DNA of 64,000 nucleotides from an uncultured Flaviramulus sp. (lineage in GTDB: Bacteria > Bacteroidota > Bacteroidia > Flavobacteriales > Flavobacteriaceae): the NCBI GenBank assembly GCA_947495125.1, contig CANLXL010000005.1, positions 124,001 through 188,000 on the forward strand, in the 5' to 3' direction. Position 1 is the first letter of the stretch, and every line of letters begins with the position of its first letter. The position numbers were made by a program, and so were the translations under genes. The notes below the pieces were generated by a model. The model was given only the letters and a program-made list of their open reading frames with translations. It was not told where the DNA came from and ran no database searches. Positions 10,092 to 35,244 of the stretch are shown piece after piece.

Positions 10092-12311
10092 ATGAGTAGA
10101 ATAGGTGTCATATTTTTTACTATTATAGGGATTTCCGCTTGTGGGAAGAAGGAATACAAAGATAAAATTTACGAAAAGCCTGAAATTGTAAGGGAGGCAC
10201 CTGGAGACTATCTTTCTCCCGAAGAGAGCATGGAAAAGTTTTATTTGCCCGAAGGTTATAAAATTGAATTGGTAGCCAGTGAACCAATGGTCCGTGAACC
10301 CGTGGCAATAGCATGGGATGGAAATGGTAAAATGTATGTAGCTCAAATGGACACCTATATGCAGAATGTCGATGGAGATGGAACCGATGAAGCTATTAGC
10401 CAGGTAAAACTTTTGGAAGATTTGGATGGCGATGGGAAGATGGATAAAAGCACTGTTTTTATTGATAGTTTGGTTTTACCCAGAATGATTTTGACTTTAG
10501 ATGATCGTTTGATTGTAAATGAAACCTACTCTTACGATTTGCACAGCTATAGAGATACAAATGGAGATGGAGTTGCCGACGAGAAAATCGAGTTATATTC
10601 AAACCCCAACCGCCGCGGAGGAAATTTGGAACACCAGCAAAGTGGTTTACTTTGGAATTTAGACAATTGGCTTTATATGACCACACAGCCTTATAGATTG
10701 AGATTTACCAAGGGTGAAATGGAATTGGAAAAACTTGAAAATTATCCAGGAGGACAATGGGGCTTGACTCAGGATGATCTGGGACATATGTATTATTCAT
10801 CGGCGGGGGGAGAGAATCCGGCATATGGCTTTCAACAGCCGGCAGTTTACGGATACCATAACCCGGAAGGAAGATTGGCGGAAGGGTTTCAGGAGCCATT
10901 CCCTATCGTCGGAAATCCCGATGTTCAGGGAGGTATCGAAAGAAGAAATAAAGAAGATGGGACTTTGAATCATTTCACAGGAGTTGCCGGTCAAGCCATT
11001 TATAGAGGTGATAAATTACCACCTTCGGTAAATGGAGATCTGTTTATTCCCGAACCTGTGGGAAGATTGATTCGAAGAGCTAAAGTAAAAAATGAAAACG
11101 GAAAAAAAGTATTGTATAATGCCTATAATAATGCAGAATTTCTGGCATCCACCGATTTGAATTTTCGACCTGTTCAGGCACAAACAGGCCCAGATGGATG
11201 TTTGTATATTGTAGATATGTACAGAGGCATTATTCAGGAAAGTAATTGGACACGGGAAGGCAGTAAAATAAGACCTCATATTATTCGTAAAGGACTTGAC
11301 AAAAACTTTGGAAAAGGAAGAATTTATCGAATTGTTCATGAACAGATTAAGCCAGCTGAAAAACCAAATTTGCTTGATAAAACCGCTGAGCAATTATTGG
11401 ATTACCTGGGACATGCCAATGGATGGTACCGAGATACAGCTCAGAAATTAATCGTTTTAAAAGGTGATAAATCGGTGATACCTGCGCTTAAAAAGATGAC
11501 CGAAAACAACGAATCTTTTTGGACCGATATGTTTGGCGATAAGGATTATGCTCTCGAGAGAGTTCATGCTTTATGGACTTTGGAAGGACTTGGAATAGTA
11601 GACAAAGCATTGCTTATTGAAAAATTAAAAGACGTGGATCCCAGAGTCCGAATCACTGCCATTCGTTTGTGCGACGAATTATTAAAAAATGGAGATGTAG
11701 CAATAATACCCCATCTTAAACAGTTGCAATCAGATAAAGACATCAATGTTGTAAATCAGTTGGCTCTAAGCCTGAGATATAGCACAAGTTCTGACGCCAC
11801 AAAAATCTTAAAATCAATCGCTGAAAAATTTGATAAACACGAAATTATTTCAGTGTCGGCAACGGAAAGTTTGAAAAAAGACGATTCCGAATTACAAAAT
11901 CTTAAAAATAGCATTATCGATAGGCGTAATAGCGATAGAAATAGAATTTTAAAAGGATACGATACCTATAAAATGTTATGTGTCACCTGCCATGGCCCTG
12001 ATTTAAAAGGCGTTCCAAATGGTGAAAAATCCTTTATCGCACCTTCCTTGATGGGATCAGAGCGGGTTACCGGAGATAAGGAAGCTCTTATTAAAATAAT
12101 GTTGCATGGGCTTGTTGGGCCGATAGATGGTACAGATTATGGTATCATGCTACCCATGGGCAGCAATGATAATAATTGGATAGCTAATGTCACAAGTTAT
12201 ATTCGTGCTATGAATGACGCATCGGTTGTGAATGGATGGGAAGTAAATCAAGTTAGACAAGCAAACTCTGACAGAGATACCTATTGGACCTTAAAAGAAC
12301 TTGAGAAGTAA
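10092..12311 (+). CDS. PVC-type propeller dehydrogenase-like lipoprotein with HEAT repeats and cytochrome c domain
   Basis: A 739-residue lipoprotein (lipobox ISAC, Cys17). Residues about 50-430 are a beta-propeller of the putative membrane-bound dehydrogenase type common in Planctomycetes, with calcium-loop-like DGDGDGTDE and DLDGDGKMD segments. Residues about 440-590 are HEAT-like helical repeats. The C-terminus has a c-type heme motif C630-V-T-C-H634 and a candidate Met ligand in GIMLPMG. It is likely periplasmic or surface-anchored and could pass electrons from a sugar or alcohol to the respiratory chain. It is followed by a DUF1080 gene and a propeller-cupredoxin gene, which together look like one redox unit. 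The donor substrate is not known. Confidence 0.85.
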   Translation: MSRIGVIFFTIIGISACGKKEYKDKIYEKPEIVREAPGDYLSPEESMEKFYLPEGYKIELVASEPMVREPVAIAWDGNGKMYVAQMDTYMQNVDGDGTDEAISQVKLLEDLDGDGKMDKSTVFIDSLVLPRMILTLDDRLIVNETYSYDLHSYRDTNGDGVADEKIELYSNPNRRGGNLEHQQSGLLWNLDNWLYMTTQPYRLRFTKGEMELEKLENYPGGQWGLTQDDLGHMYYSSAGGENPAYGFQQPAVYGYHNPEGRLAEGFQEPFPIVGNPDVQGGIERRNKEDGTLNHFTGVAGQAIYRGDKLPPSVNGDLFIPEPVGRLIRRAKVKNENGKKVLYNAYNNAEFLASTDLNFRPVQAQTGPDGCLYIVDMYRGIIQESNWTREGSKIRPHIIRKGLDKNFGKGRIYRIVHEQIKPAEKPNLLDKTAEQLLDYLGHANGWYRDTAQKLIVLKGDKSVIPALKKMTENNESFWTDMFGDKDYALERVHALWTLEGLGIVDKALLIEKLKDVDPRVRITAIRLCDELLKNGDVAIIPHLKQLQSDKDINVVNQLALSLRYSTSSDATKILKSIAEKFDKHEIISVSATESLKKDDSELQNLKNSIIDRRNSDRNRILKGYDTYKMLCVTCHGPDLKGVPNGEKSFIAPSLMGSERVTGDKEALIKIMLHGLVGPIDGTDYGIMLPMGSNDNNWIANVTSYIRAMNDASVVNGWEVNQVRQANSDRDTYWTLKELEK

Positions 12312-12378
12312 GTAAGCATTAATTATTAATTTTATATGAAACGATATTTTGAATAAAAATAAATTATTAAACAAACAA

Positions 12379-14271
12379 ATGAAGAACGTATACCTATTTT
12401 TTGTGCTTGTCGTCGGAGCTCTTATGATTTCCTGTTCTGAAGGGAATTCGGAAACAGCGATTAAAAAAGAAAGACAACTAGAAGTTTTGCCGTTTAAAAC
12501 CATCGATTTAAATAGTTTGGAAGGTTTCAAACCGGTGGCTAAAAATTGGCAGATCGTTGGCGATGTTTATGTAGATCAATCGAAAAAAAGAACCTTTGTT
12601 TCGAAACCAGGCACTGGCATTTTATTGAATGTACCTGAAAAATCAATGAAAGAAAATCTTTTTACCGCATTTGAGCATGGCGATATTGAAATTGAATTGG
12701 ATGTCATGATGCCGATTCATTCCAATTCCGGACTTTATTTTCAAGGGCGCTATGAAGTCCAATTATTGGATAGCTGGGGAGTAAAAGACCCGAAACATTC
12801 TGATATTGGGGGAATATACCAACGTTGGGACAAAACCATAGAAGTTGTTCATGATAGGGGTTTTGAAGGCCACCCACCAAAGGTGAACGCGGCTAAAGCA
12901 CCCGGGCTATGGCAACATTTTAAAATAATTTTTCATGCCCCAAAATTTGATACTTCGGGGAATAAAATAAAAAATGCCTCGTTTGAAGAAGTATGGTTGA
13001 ATGGGGCACTGCTTCATAAAAACCAGGAAGTCACCGGCCCGACGCGTTCAGGCGCTTTTGAGGATGAAAAACCCATGGGACCCTTAATGATTCAGGGAGA
13101 TCATGCCGGCGTTGCTATTAGAAATATCAAATACAAATTGTATGGAAATGAAAAAGTTTCTTTTAACAATTTGAAAATGAAAGCGTATCAGAATACAAGT
13201 CAATCGATACCAAAACTTGATACATTAGCAGTTGAACGCGAAATTAGTTCCGACTCCATTTCATCTGCTATGGCCACTGGTCAAAACCCTCAAAAACTAT
13301 TAGTATATAATGGTAATTTGAACATCCCAAAAACAGGGGATTATTTATTTGAAATGAAAGTTCACAGAGGTGGCGGACTTCTGTTGATAGATAGGGATAC
13401 CATTGTGGATTTAGATGGTGATTACAGTATAGATCAGGCGAAGTTTGGACTCGTCTCACTACAACAGGGAAGTGTCCCGTTCACCTTCATTTATAATAAG
13501 CATAGACCGTATCAAAGAGGATTTGCGTTATCTGTTGAAGGGCCTGGAATAGCTAAGCAAGACCTCCATGCCCCTGGATCCTTGATTATAGGTGGAGGAG
13601 ATTCTCAATCTGTCGAAGTAGCTTTGTCCGAAGAAACAGTATTACAACGAGGGTTTTTTAATCACAAAAATCAAAAAAGAACACATGTAATTTCAGTTGG
13701 TTCACCAAAAGATATTCATTATGCCTTCGATTTGTCATTTGGTTCGCTCTTGCAAGTATGGAGTAATGGCTTCCTCGATGTTACCAAGATGTGGGTGGCA
13801 AGAGGAGGACAACAATTGAGTGTTCCTGTTGGAATTCCGGTCTCAATACATGGCGATCCGGATTTCGCTTATTTGGAAAACAAAAAATCCAAATGGCCAG
13901 ACAGCATAACCACAAACACGTCATACAGGCAATTAGGTTATGAATTAGATCGGTATGGTAACCCCGAATTCTCAACAGGAATGAACGGGTCGGTAATTAC
14001 CAACAAATTTATCCCTTCCGACACTTTAAGAAGATTAAAAAGAATGATTTCAATCCATTCAGATAAGGAAATCTGGCACAAACTAGGGGAAGGTAGTGTT
14101 ATTGAAGAACTACCGGATAATACCTATGCCATAAATGACAAAGATTATTTCGTGGACTTTTCAGGGAATGATCGATATAAACCAATCATCCGAAAATTGG
14201 AAGGCAAAGATGAGCTCGTTGTAAAAATACCGGAAGGAAATCAAAATATCACATACACCATTAGTTGGTAA
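12379..14271 (+). CDS. DUF1080 (3-keto-disaccharide hydrolase-like) lipoprotein with PA14-like and unknown C-terminal domain
   Basis: A 630-residue lipoprotein. The ATG at 12379 is preferred to an upstream in-frame TTG (12349) because it places the leader directly before lipobox LMISC (Cys19). Residues about 40-255 form a DUF1080/LamG-like jelly roll with the conserved SNSGLYFQGRYEVQLLDS. Residues about 300-390 look PA14-like. Residues about 425-620 are an unrecognised domain with the signature YAFDLSFGSLLQVWSNGFLD. DUF1080 proteins are known to cleave 3-keto-glycosides made by a sugar 3-oxidising enzyme, so pairing with redox proteins on both sides fits. The same three domain types recur in the 1197-residue fusion downstream. 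The specific reaction is inferred. Confidence 0.8.
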   Translation: MKNVYLFFVLVVGALMISCSEGNSETAIKKERQLEVLPFKTIDLNSLEGFKPVAKNWQIVGDVYVDQSKKRTFVSKPGTGILLNVPEKSMKENLFTAFEHGDIEIELDVMMPIHSNSGLYFQGRYEVQLLDSWGVKDPKHSDIGGIYQRWDKTIEVVHDRGFEGHPPKVNAAKAPGLWQHFKIIFHAPKFDTSGNKIKNASFEEVWLNGALLHKNQEVTGPTRSGAFEDEKPMGPLMIQGDHAGVAIRNIKYKLYGNEKVSFNNLKMKAYQNTSQSIPKLDTLAVEREISSDSISSAMATGQNPQKLLVYNGNLNIPKTGDYLFEMKVHRGGGLLLIDRDTIVDLDGDYSIDQAKFGLVSLQQGSVPFTFIYNKHRPYQRGFALSVEGPGIAKQDLHAPGSLIIGGGDSQSVEVALSEETVLQRGFFNHKNQKRTHVISVGSPKDIHYAFDLSFGSLLQVWSNGFLDVTKMWVARGGQQLSVPVGIPVSIHGDPDFAYLENKKSKWPDSITTNTSYRQLGYELDRYGNPEFSTGMNGSVITNKFIPSDTLRRLKRMISIHSDKEIWHKLGEGSVIEELPDNTYAINDKDYFVDFSGNDRYKPIIRKLEGKDELVVKIPEGNQNITYTISW

Positions 14272-14287
14272 CAAAAAAAATAGAAAC

Positions 14288-16255
14288 ATGAACATTATTA
14301 ATAGAACATTTAACTACTTCCTACTAATATTGATCTTGGGCGGTAGCCAATTTGGGATCGCACAATCTGGTATTGATATAAAAGAAAAAGAGTCTAAGTA
14401 TTACAAAATCGTGGATGTACCCATTCCTGAAGATGTTGTTTTGGAGGTTGGAGGGCTTGCGCTTACTAATGACGATCAACTTGGTGTTTCTACAAGAAGA
14501 GGGGAAGTCTGGTTAATAGATAAACCTTATGGCTCAAAACCTTCCTACAATAGATATGCCCATGGTTTGCATGAAGCACTTGGATTGGCTTATAAAGACA
14601 ACGGTTTCTATCTGGCTCAAAGAGGGGAGCTCACGCGACTTGAGGACAAGAATGGGGATGGAAAAGCGAATTTGTACAAAACTGTTTATTCCTGGCCTTT
14701 ATCCGGTAATTACCATGACTACTCGTATGGACCAAAATTTATGCCTAATGGTGATATGTTAGTAACCCTTAACCTTGGCTGGGAAGGAAAAGGTGTTAGT
14801 TTAGTCAAATGGAGGGGGTGGATGCTAAAAATTACTCCAGAGGGTAAAATGACTCCAATGGCTACAGGGTTGAGGTCTCCCGCAGGTTTTGGAGTCAACA
14901 ATGATGGTGCTGTTTTTTATACTGAAAACCAAGGAGACTGGGTTGGCTCAGGTAGAATGACGCATTTGGAATTGGGTGATTTTGCAGGGAATCCTTCTGG
15001 CCTAAAATGGACAGATGATCCTTTGTCTCCATTAAAATTGAAACCTGAAGATATCGAAAAGCAATCCGGATTAAGTTTATATGAATATGCCAAGAAGGTC
15101 CCGAACTTAAAGGCTCCTGCTATATGGTTGCCTCATACAATTCTTGGGATATCTACTTCCGATATTTTAATAGACGACAATAAAGGTAAATTTGGTCCTT
15201 TTGATGGTCAGATGTTTATTGGCGACCAAGGACATAGTAAAATTATGCGTGTGGCCATGGAGAAGGTAAATGGTGTATATCAGGGAGCGGCTTTTCCTTT
15301 TATTGAAGGGTTCTCTTCCGGAATACTAAGAATGATTTGGGGCAGTGATGCTAGTATGTTTGTGGGAATGACCAGCCGTGGATGGTCTTCTACAGGTAAA
15401 GAAGACTATGGCCTCCAACGATTGGTATGGACCGGCAAAACACCTTTCGAAATCAAAACGATAAAAGCTCAGGATGATGGATTTGTAGTAGAATTTACCA
15501 AGCCTGTAAACAAACAATTGGCAGGGCAAACTTCATCGTACAAACTCGCCACATTTACCTATCATTATCACAATACCTACGGAAGCCCAATCGTGGATCA
15601 ACAAGGAGGAATGGTACATGCGGCCAAGGTATCTGAAGATGGTTTATCTGTAAAATTGACAATCCATGGCATGAGATTGGGATTTATTCATCAATTAAAG
15701 ATGGCAGGTGTAAAATCGAAAACGGGAGAATCATTGCTGCATGATACAGGTTTTTATACCTTAAATGAAGTTCCTGGTGGCGTTTTGAAATCACCCCAAA
15801 TGCCTGCAATGATAAAATCAGGAAAGGGTATTCACCAGCCTAAAAGAGTAAACCAAATGCCTCTGACCTGGATGGATGGCCCGGAGAAAAAACTGATAAT
15901 TGGGACATTGCCGGGGCTGAAGTTTGACAAAGAAGAATTGGTAGTGGAACGCAATAGTTTGCTACAGCTTACTTTGAACAACAATGATGATATGTTGCAC
16001 AATCTGGTTATCATTCAATCTGGCCCGAATAATGCGGATATAGTAGGTCAACAGGCCATGGAACTTGGATTGAAAGGACCGGATATGAACTATGTGCCGG
16101 ATTCAGATTTGGTACTTTTCCATACAGGCATCATCCAGCCCGAAACTTCCGAATCCATCTACTTTCAAGTACCAAAAAGACGAGGTGAATATTGGATACT
16201 CTGTACGTTCCCTGGACATTCGCAGACCATGCGTGCTAAATTGATTGTGAAATAA
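14288..16255 (+). CDS. Propeller protein fused to a C-terminal cupredoxin (azurin/plastocyanin-like) domain
   Basis: A 655-residue exported protein (signal peptide to about residue 25). Residues about 40-400 form a PQQ/NHL-type beta-propeller like those of sugar dehydrogenases, followed by a small beta domain (400-510, ending FYTLNEVP). Residues about 555-655 are a cupredoxin whose type-1 copper ligands are visible: His571, Cys639, His644 and Met648. No heme motif is present. It probably couples a substrate-binding propeller with a built-in copper electron carrier in the periplasm. The propeller plus following domain align with residues about 535-985 of the fusion protein downstream, which carries cytochrome c instead of copper. 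The oxidised substrate is unknown. Confidence 0.85.
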   Translation: MNIINRTFNYFLLILILGGSQFGIAQSGIDIKEKESKYYKIVDVPIPEDVVLEVGGLALTNDDQLGVSTRRGEVWLIDKPYGSKPSYNRYAHGLHEALGLAYKDNGFYLAQRGELTRLEDKNGDGKANLYKTVYSWPLSGNYHDYSYGPKFMPNGDMLVTLNLGWEGKGVSLVKWRGWMLKITPEGKMTPMATGLRSPAGFGVNNDGAVFYTENQGDWVGSGRMTHLELGDFAGNPSGLKWTDDPLSPLKLKPEDIEKQSGLSLYEYAKKVPNLKAPAIWLPHTILGISTSDILIDDNKGKFGPFDGQMFIGDQGHSKIMRVAMEKVNGVYQGAAFPFIEGFSSGILRMIWGSDASMFVGMTSRGWSSTGKEDYGLQRLVWTGKTPFEIKTIKAQDDGFVVEFTKPVNKQLAGQTSSYKLATFTYHYHNTYGSPIVDQQGGMVHAAKVSEDGLSVKLTIHGMRLGFIHQLKMAGVKSKTGESLLHDTGFYTLNEVPGGVLKSPQMPAMIKSGKGIHQPKRVNQMPLTWMDGPEKKLIIGTLPGLKFDKEELVVERNSLLQLTLNNNDDMLHNLVIIQSGPNNADIVGQQAMELGLKGPDMNYVPDSDLVLFHTGIIQPETSESIYFQVPKRRGEYWILCTFPGHSQTMRAKLIVK

Positions 16256-22188: not shown

Positions 22189-23097
22189 ATGAAGAAACCA
22201 TTCAAATTATTAATTCCCCTTTTTCTTGTCATTGTTTCCCTTAGCTTTTCTGCTAAAGCTCAGAAATATGAAGCACTGATCATCACTGGTCAAAACAATC
22301 ACTATTGGCAAGGAAGCTCCGTAGTGATCGAAGGTATTTTGAACAACAGTGGGATGTTCAATGCTACTATTGTTACTACGCCTTCCAAAGGTGAGGACAT
22401 GTCTGGTTTTCAGCCCGATTTTAGCAAATATGACTTGATATGCCTTGATTATAATGGAGATCATTGGCCTGAGAACACAAAGGCGAATTTTGTTGATTTT
22501 ATCAAAAAAGGAGGTGGCTTGGTTGTCTTTCATGCTTCCGATAATTCATGGGGCGATTGGGAGGAATACAACCGAATGATCGGTGTTGGTGGTTGGGGTA
22601 ATCGTACCGAGGCGCATGGTCCCATTATTTATTGGGAAGACGGAAAATTCAAGAAAGACAAATCACCAGGTAAAGGAGGAAGACATGGAAAACAGGATGA
22701 ATTTATAGTTCATACCAGAATGCCGGATCACCCGATCATGAGAGGACTGCCAACGCAATGGTTGCATACGAAAGATGAATTGTATCATAGTTTGAGAGGG
22801 CCTGCAAAACGTATGAAGGTATTGGCCACCGCTTCTCAACCAAAAGACAGAGGAGGTTCTGGTCGTCAAGAACCTGTTTTGATGGTTATTAAATATGGCA
22901 AAGGCCGAGTCTTTCATTCCGTGATGGGGCACACTGGAAATAAACACAACAATACAACCCTTGATGCAGGATTTATGACAACTTATCTACGCGGTGCTGA
23001 GTGGGTGGTAACCGGAGATGTAACACAAAAGGTAAGTGGTGATTTTCCTGATGCGCAAACTGTCAAGATTTGGGAAGATATGAAAGTGCCAGAGTAA
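22189..23097 (+). CDS. ThuA-domain (trehalose-utilisation-like) exported protein
   Basis: A 302-residue protein with a clear signal peptide (to about residue 24, SAKAQ). The body is a ThuA fold, a class I glutamine amidotransferase-like domain, with KYDLICLDYNGDHWP, GGGLVVFHASDN and GKGRVFHSVMGHT. ThuA proteins recur beside Gfo/Idh oxidoreductases and DUF1080 proteins in saccharide clusters, but their reaction is poorly defined. Presence next to the DUF1080/redox genes is therefore suggestive and not proof of a shared pathway. It is followed by a 128-base gap, the first larger break in the operon, which contains a short decayed-looking ORF. Confidence 0.85.
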   Translation: MKKPFKLLIPLFLVIVSLSFSAKAQKYEALIITGQNNHYWQGSSVVIEGILNNSGMFNATIVTTPSKGEDMSGFQPDFSKYDLICLDYNGDHWPENTKANFVDFIKKGGGLVVFHASDNSWGDWEEYNRMIGVGGWGNRTEAHGPIIYWEDGKFKKDKSPGKGGRHGKQDEFIVHTRMPDHPIMRGLPTQWLHTKDELYHSLRGPAKRMKVLATASQPKDRGGSGRQEPVLMVIKYGKGRVFHSVMGHTGNKHNNTTLDAGFMTTYLRGAEWVVTGDVTQKVSGDFPDAQTVKIWEDMKVPE

Positions 23098-23225: not shown

Positions 23226-25559
23226 ATGAAAAATACACTTCTTATACTAGTCAGTTCGTTTTTTTTAATTACCAGCAGCCCCATTCTGGCCCAAAACAAG
23301 CTTTGGTACAAGCAACCGGCCCAAAACTGGTTGGAAGCTCTGCCACTTGGCAATGGACGGTTAGGAGCCATGGTGCACGGAGGCGTAGAGCAGGAGCATA
23401 TCCAGTTCAATGAAGAAACACTTTGGACGGGGAAGCCCAGAAATTATGCCCGAGAAGGAGCCAGCCAATATTTGGATGAGATTAGGCAATTATTGTTTGA
23501 TGGAAAGCAACGAGAAGCTCAGGAATTAATAGGAGAAAAATTTATGAGTGTGCCCAGATCGTTAATGGCTTATCAACCATTTGGTGATGTGATTATTGAT
23601 TTTCCTGGGCATAAGGAATATACAGACTATTACAGAGTGTTGAATATTGAAAATGCCATCAGTAAAATTTCCTATAACATTGATGGGATTAACTATACCC
23701 GTGAGTATTTCGTCAGCCATCCCGATCAACTGATAGCTATAAAATTAACAAGCGACAAATCGGGTACGCTCGATTTCAATGTGCATTTGGAATCTATTCA
23801 TTTCAAAAGTTCAGTACAGACCAACGGTGACCAGCAACGTCTGAACGTAAGACCTGACAGTGAACATCAGCGTTTTACAAATGAATTCGAGGAAAGCTTG
23901 TTATACGGAGAAGCTGGACTGAAAGTTATTACCGATGGAAAGGTTATTGGAAAATACAAAGAGATACAAGTGATAGGAGCAACAACCGCCACGATATATC
24001 TTGCTGCGCATACAAATTTTATTAACTATCAGGATATTAGCGGTAAGCCTAAAAGTGACATCAACAAGGCATTGAAAAAATTTGCAGCGTTGGATTATGA
24101 CCAAACCAAGCAGGATCATATTAAAGACTATCAAGCGCTTTTTAACAGGTTCAAAATTAAATTCGATGGAGAAAACAAAAACGACCTTCCAACGAACGAA
24201 CGAATTTATGCGTTTTGGAAGGCCCCTAACGATCCCGAATTTGTATCGCAATATGTTCAATTTGGTCGTTACCTGATGATTTCTTCAAGCCGATCTGGTA
24301 CCCAACCGGCAAACTTACAAGGCATCTGGAACCAGAACATCAATCCAGCTTGGAAAAGTAAATACACCACCAATATCAATGCAGAGATGAATTATTGGCC
24401 AGCGGAAGTCACCAACTTATCCGAATGCCACGAGCCCTTCATCAACATGATAAACGAGTGTGCTCAGACGGGAGAAAAGGTCGCTCGCGAACACTACAAG
24501 GCAAACGGTTGGGTACTTCACCATAATTCTGATATTTGGAGAGCTACAGCTCCGATCAACCTGCCTTTTATCGGACCTTGGGTTGGAGGATCGGGATGGG
24601 TTACCCATCATTTGTGGGAGAGGTTCTTATTTACTCAAGATGAAGACTTTCTCAGGAAAGAATATCCGGTGATTAAAAAAGCAGCCCGGTTTTATAGCGA
24701 ATTCTTGGTTAAAGATCCAAAAACGGGATGGTTGATCAGTACACCGTCTAATTCCCCTGAAATAGGAGGACTGGTCGCGGGCCCAACCATGGACCATCAG
24801 ATTATTCGATCACTTTTTAAAGTTTGTATTGAAGCCTCAGAAATTTTAAATACCGATCAGGAATTTGCAAGCAAATTAAAGCAACTGATCCCGAAAATTG
24901 CCCCGAACCAAATTGGTCGGCATGGACAACTTCAGGAATGGCTGGAAGATAAGGATGATCCTGAGGAACACCATAGGCATGTGTCACATTTGTGGGCCGT
25001 ACATCCGGGTAAGGACATCAATTGGGAGGAAACACCGGAAATGATGAAAGCGGCTCAACAGTCTTTGGAGTACAGAGGAGACAATGGTACGGGTTGGAGT
25101 TTGGCATGGAAAATTAATTTCTGGGCGAGATTTCGTGATGGTAATCGTGCCTACAGGTTGATCCATAATTTACTGAGCCCCGCAGAAGAGCCTCTAAAGA
25201 AAACGGGCGGTGGTTCTTATCCAAATTTATTCGATGCACATCCACCTTTTCAGATAGATGGAAATTTTGGAGGAGCGTCTGGGATTGTTGAAATGTTGAT
25301 TCAAAGTCATTTGGAGGCTATTGACCTGCTTCCCGCTTTACCGGATGCGCTGGATGACGGTCATATTTCTGGTGTTGTTGCCAGAGGAGGTTTCGAATTG
25401 TCATTCGACTGGAAAAAAGGGGAGCTGCAAAAAGTAAGCGTACTATCAAAAGCTGGTAAAAAATGTAAACTCAGGTACGAAAACAAAAGTATTGAGTTCA
25501 ATACAACGAAAGGTAAGACGTATACTTTCAATGGAAAATTAAAGAAGATTTATGAATAA
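23226..25559 (+). CDS. GH95 alpha-L-fucosidase/alpha-L-galactosidase-like enzyme
   Basis: A 777-residue exported enzyme (signal peptide to about residue 23, ILAQ). Domains: N-terminal beta-sandwich (about 25-270), (alpha/alpha)6 catalytic barrel (about 320-680) and C-terminal beta-domain. By comparison with characterised GH95 enzymes, candidate catalytic residues are Asn383 and Asn385 in TTNINAEMNYW, Glu571 in QEWLED and Asp678 in QIDGNFGG. GH95 enzymes are inverting exo-hydrolases of alpha-1,2-L-fucosyl or alpha-L-galactosyl residues. Thr381, two before the first Asn, falls where some fucosidases have His; a Thr there has been linked to L-galactose acceptance. It has a tandem paralogue 26 bases downstream. 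Confidence 0.93.
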   Translation: MKNTLLILVSSFFLITSSPILAQNKLWYKQPAQNWLEALPLGNGRLGAMVHGGVEQEHIQFNEETLWTGKPRNYAREGASQYLDEIRQLLFDGKQREAQELIGEKFMSVPRSLMAYQPFGDVIIDFPGHKEYTDYYRVLNIENAISKISYNIDGINYTREYFVSHPDQLIAIKLTSDKSGTLDFNVHLESIHFKSSVQTNGDQQRLNVRPDSEHQRFTNEFEESLLYGEAGLKVITDGKVIGKYKEIQVIGATTATIYLAAHTNFINYQDISGKPKSDINKALKKFAALDYDQTKQDHIKDYQALFNRFKIKFDGENKNDLPTNERIYAFWKAPNDPEFVSQYVQFGRYLMISSSRSGTQPANLQGIWNQNINPAWKSKYTTNINAEMNYWPAEVTNLSECHEPFINMINECAQTGEKVAREHYKANGWVLHHNSDIWRATAPINLPFIGPWVGGSGWVTHHLWERFLFTQDEDFLRKEYPVIKKAARFYSEFLVKDPKTGWLISTPSNSPEIGGLVAGPTMDHQIIRSLFKVCIEASEILNTDQEFASKLKQLIPKIAPNQIGRHGQLQEWLEDKDDPEEHHRHVSHLWAVHPGKDINWEETPEMMKAAQQSLEYRGDNGTGWSLAWKINFWARFRDGNRAYRLIHNLLSPAEEPLKKTGGGSYPNLFDAHPPFQIDGNFGGASGIVEMLIQSHLEAIDLLPALPDALDDGHISGVVARGGFELSFDWKKGELQKVSVLSKAGKKCKLRYENKSIEFNTTKGKTYTFNGKLKKIYE

Positions 25560-27934: not shown

Positions 27935-29641
27935 ATGAGATACTTGCTTGTACTTACAGTCACCTTACTATTTTTTTCTTGTGCTGAAAAAACAGTGCTG
28001 AAAAGCAAACCCAATGTATTGGTTATCCTTATCGACAATCAGGGATATTATGAATTGAGTCGGAATGGGAATGAAATTGTTCAAACACCAAGGATAGATG
28101 CACTATCAACTACAGCAGTTAATTTTACCGATTTTTATGCACCTCCATTTTGTTCTCCTAGCAGATCGGCACTTTTGACTGGTCGATATGCGCTGAGGGC
28201 TGGTATACACAATACGGTAGGTGGGGTTTCCATTCTCCATAAGGATGAGATTACAATGGCGGACATACTAAAAAAGGAAGGTTACAGCACAGGAGTATTT
28301 GGTAAATGGCACTTGGGGTCGTCCTATCCTTACGCTCCAAAATTTAGAGGTTTTGATGAAGTCTTTGTACATGGAGGAGGAGGTGTAAGCCAGCTTGGTG
28401 ATTATTATGGCAACAATCATATAGATGCTACTTACTCGCATAATGGGAAATTTGTAAAATCCAATGGATTCTCAACAGATGTTCTTTTTGATGAAGCCAT
28501 AAAATATATGGATGGAAAGAAAAGATCAGATGAGCCTTTCTACTGTTATCTAACTACCCCAGCGGTTCATTTTCCGACCAATAGGCATCCCGAAACAACG
28601 CGGCGATTACTTGATCGGGGAGTGGAAGATTCCAAGTACATGGCATTATATTCCATGATTGAAAACGTGGATGATAATATCGGAAAAATAATGGATTATT
28701 TGGAATCTTCAGGTTTAAAGGAAAATACTATAGTCGTTTTGGCATCAGATCAGGGCGTAAATGATCGTGGTGCGCCAATGCACCGCTCGGGCGAATTTCA
28801 GAACAGGGGATTGTCTTTTGATGAAAAGCACCATGTGTACTGCATGATCCAATATCCTAAGCTGACAGACAAGAATCCTGGTGATAATGATAAATTAACA
28901 GGAATGGTGGATGTACTGCCCACAATATTGGATATCTGTGGTATTGAGGAACCATTGAACCTTGATGGGGAGTCATTAAAACCACTATTGGTTGGTTCTA
29001 GCGATTGGAACGATGAACGTAAGCTTATTGTACAATGTCCGCGTTCGCGCGTGAGAAAAAAATGGGAAAACACGGCAGTAAAATATAAAAAGTGGCGTTT
29101 GGTGGATGGCAAAGAACTTTATAATATTGAAAATGACTTTGGGCAAAAGACTGATGTTGCGGGAGACTATCCTGAAATTGTAAAAGAACTTACCAATACT
29201 TATGAAACTTTTTGGAATTCTCTGGCACCGGCGGAGTCATTAATTTCAGCTCATATATTGGGCGCGGACGAGGCACCCGAAATAAGGTTAGTAGGTATGG
29301 ATTGGTATCAGGGCGATGCGCCTTGGACACAGCAAGGACTTGTAAACAGAAAAAGTCAAGGGAAGTGGCGCGTACATATTGAAAATGATGGAAAATATCA
29401 GTTTGAGCTGAGAAGATATCCCCGAGAAAAAATTATGCCTATTGAAGCGGTTTCAGCGTCGATCAAAATTGGAGATGTAGAAGCTAAGGTGGACATTGAC
29501 AAAGCCGATAGTGACGCCATTTTATATCTCGAATTGAAGAAAGGCTCCTATGACATGATTACCACCTTTAAAGATCCTGAGCATACGGAAAGTAAAGATG
29601 GATGGGGTGCGAATTTTGTGCATGTAAGCTATTTAGATTAA
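27935..29641 (+). CDS. Sulfatase lipoprotein with altered metal motif and C-terminal extension
   Basis: A 568-residue lipoprotein (lipobox FFSC, Cys16). Formylglycine motif C73-S-P-S-R with LLTGR, and GKWHLGS, are canonical. The first metal motif reads LIDNQGYYEL instead of the usual DDxGxGD, so the second Asp is Asn. The late motif is ASDQGVND, with Gln where Asn is common. About 130 C-terminal residues beyond the catalytic core form an extra beta-rich domain (from LISAHILGAD to the end). Asn or Gln can still coordinate calcium, so it may be active. It follows the GH95 pair after 45 bases and precedes the 1197-residue fusion gene. Confidence 0.9.
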   Translation: MRYLLVLTVTLLFFSCAEKTVLKSKPNVLVILIDNQGYYELSRNGNEIVQTPRIDALSTTAVNFTDFYAPPFCSPSRSALLTGRYALRAGIHNTVGGVSILHKDEITMADILKKEGYSTGVFGKWHLGSSYPYAPKFRGFDEVFVHGGGGVSQLGDYYGNNHIDATYSHNGKFVKSNGFSTDVLFDEAIKYMDGKKRSDEPFYCYLTTPAVHFPTNRHPETTRRLLDRGVEDSKYMALYSMIENVDDNIGKIMDYLESSGLKENTIVVLASDQGVNDRGAPMHRSGEFQNRGLSFDEKHHVYCMIQYPKLTDKNPGDNDKLTGMVDVLPTILDICGIEEPLNLDGESLKPLLVGSSDWNDERKLIVQCPRSRVRKKWENTAVKYKKWRLVDGKELYNIENDFGQKTDVAGDYPEIVKELTNTYETFWNSLAPAESLISAHILGADEAPEIRLVGMDWYQGDAPWTQQGLVNRKSQGKWRVHIENDGKYQFELRRYPREKIMPIEAVSASIKIGDVEAKVDIDKADSDAILYLELKKGSYDMITTFKDPEHTESKDGWGANFVHVSYLD

Positions 29642-29727: not shown

Positions 29728-32700
29728 ATGAACTCTATAAGAATATTTATTCCACGCATATTATTATGCCTAACCGTTTTTTCATTATCCTGCGAATCAG
29801 TTGTAAAATATGAACGTCCTACAGATAATTGGGCCTTTCGTTCGGTACTGGATGGAAAACCACGAATGTTGAATTTGATGTTAAATACGAATCTATATGT
29901 TAGTTACGATTTGCAACGGGGTAAACTTTATAAGGCATGGCACGGAGGTATTAAACTTGACGGAGCTGTATATACTACAGCTCATGGCGTACAACCTACG
30001 AGTTATGGTCATACGTATTATGAAGACAATAGTACTACTAACCAGTGGAGGTTAAGAAAAGATGGATTAGATGAAAAACCAGAGATAAACTATATCGGTC
30101 ATCAGTTTAAACGGGGACAAGTAGTCATTGAATATGAATTGATTTCTAAATCCGGTGAGAAAATAAGAATTAAAGAGACTCCTGAATATTTGTTTGAAAA
30201 TGAAAAAACGGGTCTTGTCAGAAAATTTGAATTGGTAAATAATTCGAGTGATTATACACCAGTATTATCATTTTTTCTTGATGAAGAACAACAGCCTTTT
30301 ATTGAAATGCGTAGAGGGAAACTAAATAAAAGTGAAACAATTGGTTCCATTGAATTAACTAATAAAAAGGTAGTCTTTGAATCAATGTTTCAACCAGTTG
30401 CTTTTCAGCTTGAAAAAAACATAGAACCTGCGATGACGGAAGTCGATAGAGGGGCTATTTTCATGAAAAGTAATGATTGCAAAATATGTCATTTAAAGCA
30501 TGATAATTTAGTAGGGCCTTCTTATGAGGCCATTGCTAAAAAATACCCATATACTATTGGAGAAGTAACAAGGCTTGCGGATAAAATAATAAACGGAGGA
30601 TCTGGTGCATGGGGTGAAACTATGATGACACCTCATAAAGATTTACCAAAAGGAAGAGCGGAGCAAATGGCGCATTATATTCTGTCTTTAGATGGAGAAA
30701 CGAAACCGAAAACAAAAGTTTCTCAATTGTTTTTAGATGTGCCTTCCATAGAATTTAAACTGGATGATAGATCTAGAAAGACAAAGGAAAAAATTAGTGG
30801 TAAAGGTGTCGTTGTAAATTATTATATGCTGGATAATGATGACATTCTTTATAAAGAATTAACTAAAAAATCGTTGCCTGCGTACAACGGAATTGCGCCT
30901 GCTATTCACCTTGCTGGAAATGACAGTGTATTTAAAAAAGGAAGTAGAACTTTTTATGCTGAGTTTAAGGGATATATTAAATCTGAAAGGGCACAAAATA
31001 AATATTTTAGAATAATAAGTAAAGACGGTTCTAAGTTACACTTAAACGGTAAAGAAGTTATAGATAATGGCGAAAGACATTGGCACAAAGCAAAGGATGC
31101 ACAAGGACATTTAAAGAAAGGGTTGAATGAATTCAAAGTTCAACATTTTTGTGTGGGAACGAATTATGCAATCTCTTTACAATGGTCTGATGATGGTAAA
31201 AATTTCTCTATAGTTCCTGAATCGGTACTTTCTTATAGCTCTGATCAATTCGAAGATATTTTACCCTATGTATCCAAAGACAAACTTATAAGATATATCC
31301 CGGGCGATACCAAACCTTTAAATGCTGTTCATCCGTCTTTTGATGTCGCAACAGTTAGACCCGAAGGATTTAATCCTAGAATAGGCGGCATTGATTTTCT
31401 TTCGGAAGAAGAAATGATAATTTGCACTTGGGATTCTATCGGAGCGGTATACGTTGTGAAAAATTATCAGTCTAAGAATCCGGAGAATATTAAAATAAAG
31501 CAAATAGCCAAGGGGTTGGCAGAACCATTAGGAATAAAAGTAGTAGATGATGAAATCTACGTGCTTCAAAAGCAGGAACTTACCAAGTTAATTGATAATG
31601 ATGGTGATGAAATTATAGATGAATATCAAAAAGTGGCCAACTCATGGGCGGTTACAGACCATTATCATGAATTCGCTTTTGGATTGGTTTATAAAGAAGG
31701 GAGTTTCTACGCAACACTAGCCACCGATCTCGGAAAAGAATACAGTGCTGTAAAAGATAGAGGTCGTGTTATAAAAATAGACAAAGAAACAGGTGACGTT
31801 GAATTTGTCGCCAAAGGTTTCAGAACACCCAATGGCATTGCCGAGGGACCAGATGGCGCAATGTATGTTGCTGATAATCAAGGAAATTGGATTCCGACAA
31901 GTAAAATTATACGTGTAGAGAAAGATAAATTTTATGGCTTTAAATTTGCCGATTTTGAAGAAGTCAAAGATTTAAAAGAAGATCCACCATTGGTTTGGTT
32001 ACCACATGGCGAAATTAGTAATTCACCGAGTCAACCCGCCATACTTAATATTGGTCCATTTAAAGACCAAATGATTCATGGAGATGTAACTCATGGAGGT
32101 ATTAAGCGGGTGTTTATTGATGAAGTAGCGGGTATAAAACAAGGAGCCGTCTTTAGGTTTATTCAAGGTTTGGATGCTGGTATAAACAGAATTATGTGGG
32201 GGCCAGATGGAAGTTTATATGCAGGTGGAATTGGATCTGGTGGAAATTGGAATACCCCTGGGATTTCTTGGTATGCACTTCATAGGCTTAGTTATAACCA
32301 AAAATCAACATTTGAAATGTTGGCGGTTCGTGCGAAAAGCAACGGAATGGAAATAGAATTAACGGAAGCAGTGAGTGAATCGGTTCAATTAAGAATTGAA
32401 GATTTTGTCGCACAACAATACTATTATCAGGCGACAGAAAAGTACGGTGGTCCGAAAATGGGCGTTGAAGATCTGGCGATAGCGGCAGTGCATTTATCTG
32501 ATGATCGGAAAAAAATATTTCTAGAGTTAGATGATATGAAAGAAGGTTATGTAATATATCTCCGTATCAAGAACCCATTTGTAAGTAAAAAAGAACAGTC
32601 ACTTTGGTCAACCGAAACATGGTATACTCTAAATAAAAAGCCTGTTAATACCCCCGGATTTAAACAGAAACAGAAACATTTAGGACATAATATATTGAGT

Positions 32701-33321
32701 AAGGTAGAAATTGAGAAAGGTTGGAAACTCTTATTTGATGGAAAAACTACGAATAATTGGCATAATTATCTTGATGAAAGTGTAAATGAAAAGTGGATTG
32801 TTACAAATAAAGGTGAATTGCACTTGACCGGAAAGGGTGGCGGTCATATAGTTTCTGATAAAGAATATGAGAACTTCGAGTTAACATTGGATTGGAAAAT
32901 TGACGAAGGAGGTAATTCTGGTTTGATGTTTAATGTAGTAGAAGATAAAAAGTATAAAACACCATGGCTTACAGGTCCAGAAATGCAAATGTTAGATAAT
33001 CAAAGACACAAAGGTGGGAGACATGAAAAGCATAGAGCGGGAGATTTATATGATATGATTGCATGTGAGTTTGTAACGGCAAATGAAGGCGGACAATGGA
33101 ATACTATCAAATTAAAAATAAAGGATGGTCACGTTGAACATTGGCAGAACGGCTACAAGGTAGTGGAGTATCAATTGCACGGCGAGGATTGGAGCAAATT
33201 AATTTCTAATTCTAAGTTTAAGAAAATGAAAGATTTTGGAAAAGCAACAAAAGGGAAATTATGTATTCAAGATCATGGCGATAAATTGTGGCTCAGAAAT
33301 ATAAAAATTCGAGAATTGTAG
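29728..33321 (+). CDS. Multidomain lipoprotein: unknown domain, cytochrome c, PA14-like, propeller dehydrogenase-like, DUF1080
   Basis: A 1197-residue lipoprotein (lipobox LSC, Cys22); the ATG at 29728 is preferred to a TTG one codon earlier. Order: residues 25-230 share the YDL-x2-G-x-L-x3-W-x-G signature with the C-terminus of the DUF1080 protein at 12379. A class I cytochrome c follows (C251-K-I-C-H255; Met ligand near 299-300). A PA14-like region spans about 395-505. A propeller and linked beta domain (about 535-985) align with the propeller-cupredoxin protein at 14288. DUF1080 fills about 1000-1197 (NSGLMFNV, GPEMQMLDN). One chain thus joins electron transfer, a dehydrogenase-like propeller and a 3-keto-glycoside-cleaving-type domain. 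The activity is unproven. Confidence 0.85.
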   Translation: MNSIRIFIPRILLCLTVFSLSCESVVKYERPTDNWAFRSVLDGKPRMLNLMLNTNLYVSYDLQRGKLYKAWHGGIKLDGAVYTTAHGVQPTSYGHTYYEDNSTTNQWRLRKDGLDEKPEINYIGHQFKRGQVVIEYELISKSGEKIRIKETPEYLFENEKTGLVRKFELVNNSSDYTPVLSFFLDEEQQPFIEMRRGKLNKSETIGSIELTNKKVVFESMFQPVAFQLEKNIEPAMTEVDRGAIFMKSNDCKICHLKHDNLVGPSYEAIAKKYPYTIGEVTRLADKIINGGSGAWGETMMTPHKDLPKGRAEQMAHYILSLDGETKPKTKVSQLFLDVPSIEFKLDDRSRKTKEKISGKGVVVNYYMLDNDDILYKELTKKSLPAYNGIAPAIHLAGNDSVFKKGSRTFYAEFKGYIKSERAQNKYFRIISKDGSKLHLNGKEVIDNGERHWHKAKDAQGHLKKGLNEFKVQHFCVGTNYAISLQWSDDGKNFSIVPESVLSYSSDQFEDILPYVSKDKLIRYIPGDTKPLNAVHPSFDVATVRPEGFNPRIGGIDFLSEEEMIICTWDSIGAVYVVKNYQSKNPENIKIKQIAKGLAEPLGIKVVDDEIYVLQKQELTKLIDNDGDEIIDEYQKVANSWAVTDHYHEFAFGLVYKEGSFYATLATDLGKEYSAVKDRGRVIKIDKETGDVEFVAKGFRTPNGIAEGPDGAMYVADNQGNWIPTSKIIRVEKDKFYGFKFADFEEVKDLKEDPPLVWLPHGEISNSPSQPAILNIGPFKDQMIHGDVTHGGIKRVFIDEVAGIKQGAVFRFIQGLDAGINRIMWGPDGSLYAGGIGSGGNWNTPGISWYALHRLSYNQKSTFEMLAVRAKSNGMEIELTEAVSESVQLRIEDFVAQQYYYQATEKYGGPKMGVEDLAIAAVHLSDDRKKIFLELDDMKEGYVIYLRIKNPFVSKKEQSLWSTETWYTLNKKPVNTPGFKQKQKHLGHNILSKVEIEKGWKLLFDGKTTNNWHNYLDESVNEKWIVTNKGELHLTGKGGGHIVSDKEYENFELTLDWKIDEGGNSGLMFNVVEDKKYKTPWLTGPEMQMLDNQRHKGGRHEKHRAGDLYDMIACEFVTANEGGQWNTIKLKIKDGHVEHWQNGYKVVEYQLHGEDWSKLISNSKFKKMKDFGKATKGKLCIQDHGDKLWLRNIKIREL

Positions 33322-33548
33322 AAGAATCTAAAGAATTCTTCGAGGTTCTATCACGAGGAATAAGGTGATGTCGCATCTGTCAAAATTTACAATAGCTTGG
33401 TACATGATAATAAAAAAAAATATACTGATTTTTAGATGATTGCATTTTTTTGAGTGTCTTATTAGCGTCTAAAAACAGACCCAAATATTACAGACACAAC
33501 AGAAGTGCTTTTGTTATTATGTTATCAAATTTAAATAAACATAAAATT

Positions 33549-34992: not shown

Positions 34993-35215
34993 GGAATGCT
35001 ATCAAATTAAAAATAAGGATGGTCACGTTGAGCATTGGCAGAACGGCTACAAGGTAGTGGAGTATCAATTGCACGATGGGCGCTGGGATAAATTGGTTTC
35101 CAATTCTAAATTCAAGAAAATGAAAGATTTTGGAAAAGCAACAAAGGGAAAATTGTGTATTCAAGATCATGGCGATAAATTGTGGCTCAGAAATATAAAA
35201 ATTCGAGAATTGTAG
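34993..35215 (+). pseudogene. Remnant of a third DUF1080 gene (3' end only)
   Basis: These 223 bases match the last 224 bases of the 1197-residue fusion gene (33098-33321), ending at the equivalent stop codon. One base is missing in the A-rich run near 35012, which breaks the frame. Part of the middle has diverged while still encoding conservative changes (HDGRWDKLVSNSKFKK versus HGEDWSKLISNSKFKK). It therefore looks like the tail of a once-functional, diverged paralogue and not a fresh copy. No start or upstream domain survives. Confidence 0.8.
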
Positions 35216-35244
35216 ATGAATTAGGTAAATAAAGACAACAGCAA

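Follow-up and report, generated by a model that had tools for sequence, protein, structure and literature searches.

A recurrent single-chain fusion of cytochrome c, a sugar-dehydrogenase-like propeller and a DUF1080 domain, and its predicted place in the 3-keto-glycoside route

In gut bacteria, non-hydrolytic cleavage of glycans via 3-keto intermediates has recently been described, and a paper by Nasseri et al. (Nature, 2024) reportedly deals with the bacterial pathway. LacABC, one of the systems compared below, is a flavoprotein-cytochrome complex. The membrane-bound LacABC of Caulobacter crescentus and a DUF1080 protein have been proposed to act together on periplasmic lactose (PMC9007349). 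In Bacteroides thetaiotaomicron, BT2156-58 form a cluster of TIM-barrel, DUF1080 and Gfo/Idh genes (PMC10434189), of which BT2157 is a 3-ketotrehalose hydrolase (PMC9007349). Plant glycosides undergo C3 oxidation and then beta-elimination by another protein fold (PMC10628242), and CcPDH of Coprinopsis cinerea (AA8 + AA12) carries a cytochrome and a six-bladed sugar-dehydrogenase propeller on one chain (PMC6881789). Here we describe a 1197-residue protein encoded at positions 29728-33321 (+ strand) of a 64,000-nucleotide stretch (hereafter referred to as the window) of contig CANLXL010000005.1 from an uncultured Flaviramulus sp., in which cytochrome c, propeller and DUF1080 domains lie on a single chain.

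The domain parts of this protein are of known kinds; their single-chain union appears to be new, and no description of a DUF1080-cytochrome-propeller architecture was found among the papers listed by searches of the open-licence literature, in which few subscription papers are included. The window protein would have in common with the Caulobacter pair the scheme, proposed for the latter, of periplasmic oxidation followed by a DUF1080 protein, although the genes are separate and the dehydrogenase membrane-bound in Caulobacter, whereas the window has one lipoprotein with a propeller (PMC9007349). Like CcPDH, it has a cytochrome and a propeller on one chain, and the catalytic His of CcPDH and the Arg have likely equivalents in its propeller; CcPDH, however, features heme b, PQQ (pyrroloquinoline quinone) with an Asn contact, a CBM1 and no lyase, whereas the window protein features heme c, Thr in place of the Asn and an added DUF1080 domain (PMC6881789). 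The BT2156-58 cluster brings TIM-barrel, DUF1080 and Gfo/Idh together, as is seen near many homologues of the window protein, but no propeller or cytochrome is named in the cluster as described (PMC10434189). The solved DUF1080 eliminase/hydratases (BT2157 and AL2; 8rr2, 9fbe, 8tda and 8v31) share fold and conserved positions with the window domain, but they are chains of ~240-256 residues with no carrier or propeller, whereas the window domain occupies the C-terminal sixth of a redox protein of 1197 residues. Finally, ThuA-GSDH-PKD-cytochrome c-CBM6 proteins also place a carrier and a sugar-dehydrogenase propeller on one chain, but theirs is a true GSDH (PF07995) propeller with an RNP motif, and some of them have ThuA where the window protein has DUF1080.

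The fusion is real, recurrent and mechanistically plausible. We give an even chance to the prediction that it is a heme-coupled oxidation and beta-elimination enzyme in which a single chain performs both initial steps of the 3-keto-glycoside route. A carbohydrate would be held by the PA14 domain and the N-terminal sandwich, and the propeller would oxidise a sugar hydroxyl, probably C3 of a glycoside. The heme c of the same chain would take up the electrons and relay them to an acceptor in the periplasm, as the architecture and the exchange of carriers between relatives suggest. The resulting 3-keto-glycoside would go to the DUF1080 domain, whose fold and conserved residues point to a cut of the glycosidic bond by beta-elimination and/or hydration, and the Gfo/Idh and TIM-barrel enzymes encoded near many homologues may process the released keto sugar.

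Domains, conserved residues and electron carriers

The reading frame (29725/29728-33321, + strand) encodes 1197 residues counted from the ATG. That it specifies one fused protein, as a sequence-only reading of the window had claimed, was borne out by the open reading frame, Pfam, the family profile and an AlphaFold2 model of the whole chain (predicted local distance difference test score [pLDDT] 86.5, predicted template modelling score [pTM] 0.78; weak stretches at residues 226-235 and 292-299). The model and the profiles gave the order signal peptide, beta-sandwich, class I cytochrome c, PA14, six-bladed propeller, beta domain and DUF1080. This agrees with the order first proposed (unknown domain, cytochrome c, PA14-like, propeller, DUF1080), the unknown domain being the beta-sandwich and the beta domain an addition between the propeller and DUF1080.

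Counts per residue refer to a family alignment, also used as a profile, of 81 rows (the window protein and 80 relatives). The signal peptide (29728..29793, + strand as are all domains of the protein; sequence ...FSLSC, model helix 2-20) ends with a lipobox-like Cys22. As this column is Cys in 70/81 rows, the protein is likely an exported lipoprotein, a trait that appears largely conserved. Matches of the 81-row profile included c-type cytochromes, PA14 domains and solved DUF1080 proteins, and those listed for the propeller were to designed 'Pizza' propellers only. A scan of the window protein against NCBIfam returned only sub-threshold matches, including TIGR02604 (PVC-type heme-binding; 23.8 bits versus a curated cut-off of 122.2). 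The Pfam match of residues 594-720 to DUF7133 was also sub-threshold (24.5 bits versus 27), and none of the curated Pfam and NCBIfam models exceeded its cut-off with this propeller type.

The DUF1080 / 3-keto-disaccharide hydrolase domain (residues 998-1197; 32719..33318) was identified by Pfam, VIA-align and conserved residues. Residues 998-1195 matched PF06439 with an E-value of 1.8e-44 (152.4 bits versus a cut-off of 26.8). In VIA-align, where differences under 1 Z are ties and the absence of a family from a list carries no meaning, the best match was 3hbk (Z 31.9, root-mean-square deviation [rmsd] 1.2 over 211 residues). It was followed by 8rr2, 9fbe, 8tda and 8v31 (Z 29.2-29.4, rmsd 1.8-1.9 over 206, 34% identity), which are titled 3-keto-glycoside eliminase/hydratases or 3-keto-2-hydroxy-glucal hydratases and of which 8rr2 and 9fbe (Z 29.3-29.4) contain a ligand. 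The window domain agrees with 8v31 at its E, Q, LDN, H, WN, SKF and QDHGD positions, and E1085, Q1087, L1089, H1094, N1125, K1163, Q1181, D1182 and H1183 are invariant in 71/71 fused domains, the window's included. The sequence-only reading had named a loss of the DUF1080 active-site residues as fatal to its proposal; the presence of the positions shared with the solved 3-keto-2-hydroxy-glucal hydratase speaks against such a loss. The fold and these residues suggest that the domain cleaves 3-keto-glycosides by beta-elimination and/or hydration.

The class I cytochrome c domain (residues 240-321; 30445..30690) has the heme-binding motif C251xxC254H255 and the axial Met300, each of these four residues being present in 81/81 rows. 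The window protein alone scored below the Pfam cut-off for Cytochrom_C (19.3 bits versus 21.3, E 0.0029), and the family profile matched the solved cytochrome c 2d0s at E 4e-23, c-552 (1ayg) at 2e-21 and c551/c552 structures at 2e-21 and weaker. The cytochrome c assignment, made from sequence, is secure through the family profile.

The propeller (residues ~535-857; 31330..32298) was assigned as sugar-dehydrogenase-like from VIA-align, invariant residues and BLASTP. Its best VIA-align matches were 2ism (Z 29.1), 3a9g (29.0) and 3das (28.4); together with 2g8s, this sugar-dehydrogenase group spans Z 27.5-29.1 with an rmsd of 2.9-3.0 over 286-290 residues, and the domain has the six-bladed sugar-dehydrogenase propeller fold. 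H647, R699, D716, N717, G719 and W721 are each present in 81/81 rows. R699 aligned with the Arg of the G-x-R-N-P motif in 8/8 GSDH rows under three MAFFT modes, and also by BLASTP. H647 stands at the start of the hairpin that precedes the RxP blade, the place taken by the catalytic His in sugar dehydrogenases; from this hairpin argument, H647 is probably the equivalent of that His. BLASTP aligned the propeller with a plasmid-encoded sorbosone dehydrogenase family protein (172 columns, 26%), which matches both GSDH and DUF7133 and so bridges these two. A tblastn search of plasmids with the propeller region returned 11 records, with features including 'c-type cytochrome', 'plastocyanin/azurin family' and 'sorbosone dehydrogenase family'. 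The propeller also contains a calcium-loop-like motif, DxDGDxxxD, at residues 623-631 (window ~31594-31620), in which D623, D627 and D631 are found in 81/81 rows.

Electron transfer from the propeller to the carriers is best supported by the interchange of cupredoxin and cytochrome c on the same propeller type. Shorter propeller genes have a C-terminal cupredoxin (window 14288 and locus L037) or a C-terminal cytochrome c (L012, L038 and a Runella plasmid), and in the long fused chain the cytochrome c sits on the N-terminal side of the propeller. In six two-gene versions a DUF1080 gene precedes the shorter propeller gene (window, L012, L037, L038, the Runella plasmid and L054), the carrier having been identified in the first five. 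On the Runella rosea plasmid (L152, 6967-10845), the first of the two genes encodes DUF1080-PA14 and bears the annotation 'family 16 glycoside hydrolase'; the second encodes propeller-cytochrome c. In L054 (6283-13036), the DUF1080 and short-propeller pair directly precedes an unfused long core gene, so that both kinds occur in one locus. Small separate cytochrome c genes lie upstream of the fused gene in L048, L050 and L051 (7923-8270), which are close relatives, and in L058 (7839-8276), where a lone DUF1080 gene stands between the two; their products are 50-53% identical to the window cytochrome domain and are candidate electron acceptors. L141 (8440-10851) and L142 (9055-11388) encode proteins of ~780-800 residues with the N-terminal domain, cytochrome c and propeller and no PA14 or DUF1080 match. 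L146 (3431-6184) has the N-terminal domain, PA14 and propeller with no cytochrome c match, and Gfo/Idh and TIM-barrel genes lie just upstream of it.

Three domains remain. The N-terminal beta-sandwich (residues 23-235; 29794..30432) was modelled with a pLDDT of 90.9 when folded alone (21-235). VIA-align gave Z 8.6-10.7 to carbohydrate-enzyme sandwiches, its rows including GH38 sandwich domains, heparinase-type lyases and mutarotases (9.0-9.1), as well as the YidC periplasmic domain (10.3). Since Z 7-8 is typical for models without a clear match, this similarity, including that to mutarotase-like sandwiches, is modest. Foldseek gave no match to this domain at E 0.001 or better, and DUF6797 was weakly matched by 17/60 members (best E 3.4e-4), the window member matching nothing. 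The PA14 domain (residues 402-503; 30931..31236; PF07691, E 1.7e-7) is putatively carbohydrate-binding, Foldseek having matched it to carbohydrate-bound PA14 structures. The beta domain after the propeller (residues ~860-975; 32305..32652; model strands 864-968) was also matched in the propeller gene at 14288-16255.

Recurrence, history and gene neighbourhoods of the fusion

Genome contigs scanned with the window protein alone gave no relative. When a five-row alignment served as the query, 252 relatives were obtained, and the 80 ranked highest were retained. A full-length DUF1080 domain is on the chain in 70 of these best 80 of 252, and the contig of one more, L106, ends inside DUF1080; because the ranking was made against a fused query and so favours fused proteins, the 70/80 figure is not a prevalence. 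All six domain probes matched full length in 68 of the best 80, L099 and L100 lacking the PA14 match only. Nine lack DUF1080, all of them from Flavobacteriaceae. The domain-architecture search suggested with the original claim found the same chain again, in several families and two phyla, including Paraglaciecola, Gilvimarinus and a Steroidobacter metagenome-assembled genome (MAG), and the idea that the fusion is special to the window was rejected. L057, on a contig titled as a Rickettsiales MAG, adjoins Marinoscillum pacificum in the tree with very short branches and is probably misbinned. A search for the N-terminal domain in 395 Bacteroidota genomes gave 13 matches in 10 genomes, 6/13 of them in frames of at least 1202 amino acids, and the domains were checked in three of those six (window, L147 and L148). 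The same search in 199 genomes of the family gave 10 matches in 8, with only the window's frame exceeding 1001 amino acids, and a plasmid search with the N-terminal half returned cytochrome c stretches only.

Trees of the core (85 rows) and of DUF1080 (76 rows) were compared. In the core tree, made by a quick method with SH-aLRT (Shimodaira-Hasegawa-like approximate likelihood ratio test) support only and midpoint rooting that leaves the root unfixed, the window protein and L041 share one clade (100) with 11 unfused rows from Flavobacteriaceae, and L042 is adjacent to it (97). In the DUF1080 tree, the window and L041 pair (100/97) and are then joined by L042 (100/99). The window protein thus has identical nearest fused neighbours in the two trees, and its fusion is therefore not a recent one. 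The simplest reading is fusion first and loss later; transfer of the fusion is possible, since the window is the sole fused case found in its family.

The partnership also occurs in split form. In G026 (L036) and G514 (L139) the core is not fused; a DUF1080 gene follows it on the same strand after 14 and 34 bp, respectively, and a Gfo/Idh gene comes next. Their DUF1080 proteins are 73-76% identical mutually, 66-71% identical to the DUF1080 protein that L012 encodes at another place in the window's genome, and 35-37% identical to the best fused domains among the matches listed. Because they belong to another lineage, the same partnership has been assembled a second way. The view that the split genes are broken-off pieces of the fusion was rejected on the same ground, the tree warning of long branches there.

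The neighbourhoods of the 80 loci were compared using hidden Markov models (HMMs) built from these same loci, with Pfam identities taken from representatives. Because of this origin of the models, the contrast between near and far open reading frames, not the raw count, is the evidence. Gfo/Idh genes accounted for 36/502 open reading frames within 4 kb and 1/351 farther away, TIM-barrel (PF01261) genes for 31/502 and 1/351, and MFS transporters for 29/502 and 2/351; 2 kb were present on both sides in 60/80 loci only. On the same strand within 4 kb, Gfo/Idh was found in 25/80 loci, TIM barrels in 20/80, and a protein of the GSDH-PKD-cytochrome c-CBM6 kind, some also having ThuA, in 8/80. Examples of the last kind are L043 (11684-15052), L014 (9152-12508, on contig C24 of the window's own genome) and, without ThuA, L059 (11626-14223); in L043 and L059 they lie directly downstream of the homologues.

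The proposed reaction and its alternatives

Several observations weigh against an enzyme that oxidises and cleaves a glycoside on one chain, the propeller providing most of them. In its VIA-align list, the PQQ-proven AA12 (24.8) and sGDH (24.4), in the range Z 23-25, tie with Diels-Alderases (23.7-24.1), and lactonases (Z ~23.5) score close to them. GSDH/PF07995 gave no match to the window protein at E 0.1, and profile-profile alignment of the propeller with GSDH proteins gave nothing useful. MAFFT paired H647 with a Glu of another blade, and BLASTP placed it one residue off. T700 (81/81 rows) replaces the Asn that is present in all 8 GSDH rows by MAFFT and BLASTP, the shorter carrier-bearing propellers having Ser at this position. 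We take the Arg-Asn of the motif, at the R699/T700 positions, to be the quinone-contacting pair of CcPDH. In that enzyme Arg430 and Asn431 contact the quinone, and His363 is the equivalent of sGDH His144 (PMC6881789). A PqqC model detected nothing in 31 host genomes, namely that of the window and 30 selected others, while it exceeded its cut-off in 8/75 Gammaproteobacteria; a PqqE model, below its cut-off in 25/25 genomes and 14/14 controls and over it in none, was uninformative. As the PqqC model works in Gammaproteobacteria, its failure in the 31 hosts leaves PQQ unproven as the cofactor and perhaps unlikely unless scavenged. Membership among PQQ enzymes was rejected on Thr700 and the missing PF07995 match, to which the PqqC result adds. 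For the cofactor or substrate pocket of the propeller, on which the sequence-only reading had also staked its proposal, the picture is mixed: the invariant Arg and probably the His of the sugar dehydrogenases are retained, but Thr stands in for the quinone-contacting Asn.

The remaining points of this kind concern the company that the core keeps. Only 32/80 loci have Gfo/Idh, TIM-barrel, ThuA-GSDH or lone DUF1080 genes on the same strand within 4 kb (30/71 fused, L106 counted, and 2/9 unfused), and 3/9 loci with a shorter propeller gene (L039, L040 and L153) show no DUF1080 in the stretch fetched. Among 21 DUF1080-less loci (L009, L010, L035, L036, L044-L047, L049, L052-L054, L064 and L139-L146, L010 ending at a contig edge), 17 show no DUF1080 gene in the stretch fetched; one lies directly downstream in G026 and G514 only, and upstream, no more than 4 kb away, in L046 and L054. 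The core can therefore work without DUF1080. The sequence-only reading had treated the fusion as strong evidence that its parts act in one reaction sequence. This is strengthened by the recurrence of the fusion, by the adjacency of some split genes and by the clustering of pathway genes, and it is weakened by the 17/21 loci.

These points leave room for a propeller that is a heme-coupled dehydrogenase acting elsewhere, for example at the C1 reducing end to give a lactone, with the DUF1080 domain cleaving 3-keto-glycosides from another enzyme such as Gfo/Idh and no hand-over of substrate. The fold neighbours of the propeller include aldose dehydrogenases, which act at C1; Gfo/Idh proteins are a source of 3-keto sugars in Bacteroides, and their genes lie close by in the 25/80 loci given above; many core proteins lack DUF1080. 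Recurrence of the DUF1080 fusion in two phyla nevertheless favours direct coupling, as do the different DUF1080 gene directly downstream in two genera and the recurring DUF1080/propeller gene pairs, and we consider independent action rather unlikely.

A non-redox propeller of a binding or isomerase/hydrolase type, with the heme c serving some other electron-transfer or sensing role, would be in keeping with the replacement of the quinone-contacting Asn by Thr, the PqqC result in the 31 hosts, the lactonases and Diels-Alderases in the same VIA-align list, and L146, which keeps the N-terminal domain, PA14 and propeller without a cytochrome c match. It accords poorly with the repeated occurrence of an electron carrier, be it a cupredoxin or a cytochrome c, on one or the other side of this propeller type, with the invariant charged residues, two of them at dehydrogenase-like positions, and with the best Z-scores being to dehydrogenases; we regard it as doubtful.

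The DUF1080 domain might instead be a plain endo-glycanase, with the redox part serving a separate step. The DUF1080 protein THTE_1561 of Thermogutta is an endo-xanthanase/lichenase (PMC9007349, PMC10881899) that hydrolyses xanthan, carboxymethylcellulose (CMC), lichenan and other glucans and is GH16-like except in its catalytic cleft (PMC10881899). Keto chemistry thus does not follow from DUF1080 membership alone, and for ten such proteins of a single Pedobacter no phenotype on lactose was seen (PMC9007349). The window domain, however, is 34% identical over 206 residues to the 3-keto-glycoside eliminase/hydratases and shares their conserved positions (a comparison that did not include THTE_1561 itself), and the Gfo/Idh and TIM-barrel neighbours fit a keto route, which makes a plain glycanase very unlikely.

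That an assembly join or annotation error merely put DUF1080 in frame with its neighbour, as might be suspected from a truncated DUF1080 3′ end 1.9 kb downstream, which shows local rearrangement, and from the absence of DUF1080 in the two further long homologues that this genome encodes, is refuted by recurrence of the architecture in 70 of the best 80 of 252 records, from several families and two phyla, and by the like placement of the window, L041 and L042 in both trees, and can practically be dismissed.

The surrounding locus and the meaning of the fusion

A Pfam scan, which covered 28/36 window open reading frames of at least 200 amino acids, identified sulfatases at 794, 2329, 3835, 6925, 8442, 19435, 20827, 39527, 41030, 47956 and 49426, GH29 fucosidases at 5340 and 35245, GH95 at 23226 and 25586, SASA esterases at 16269 and 17863, and ThuA at 22189. 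The proteins at 27935 and 33450 are sulfatase-like by reading of their sequences. The window is a sulfatase-rich polysaccharide locus, the enzymes of which would fit a sulfated fucan.

Three genes at 10092-16255 had been said to hold the same domain types as the fusion, apart from a cupredoxin where the fusion has cytochrome c. This was upheld for 12349-14271 (DUF1080 + PA14) and 14288-16255 (propeller + cupredoxin), but 10092-12311 is DUF7133 + HEAT with a cytochrome c of its own. The truncated, frame-shifted remnant of a DUF1080 3′ end (35004..35221, + strand; 89% DNA identity to 33110-33327) lies between the sulfatase-like gene and the GH29 gene and is a sign of local duplication.

In a further-reaching proposal, which we put forward tentatively and consider unlikely as a whole, the propeller would represent an oxidoreductase family that works without PQQ, by another cofactor or direct heme coupling, and that, with its cytochrome c and eliminase on one chain, cuts glycosidic bonds of algal sulfated fucans by respiration-coupled oxidation and beta-elimination alongside glycoside hydrolases. 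As for the two-step prediction itself, if it is true, the union of oxidation, electron outlet and cleavage on one chain would show an extracytoplasmic route in Bacteroidota and some Gammaproteobacteria, possibly acting on sulfated fucans. It suggests a role for a propeller type without a curated match, and one expressible protein would let dehydrogenase, electron-transfer and lyase activities be examined together.

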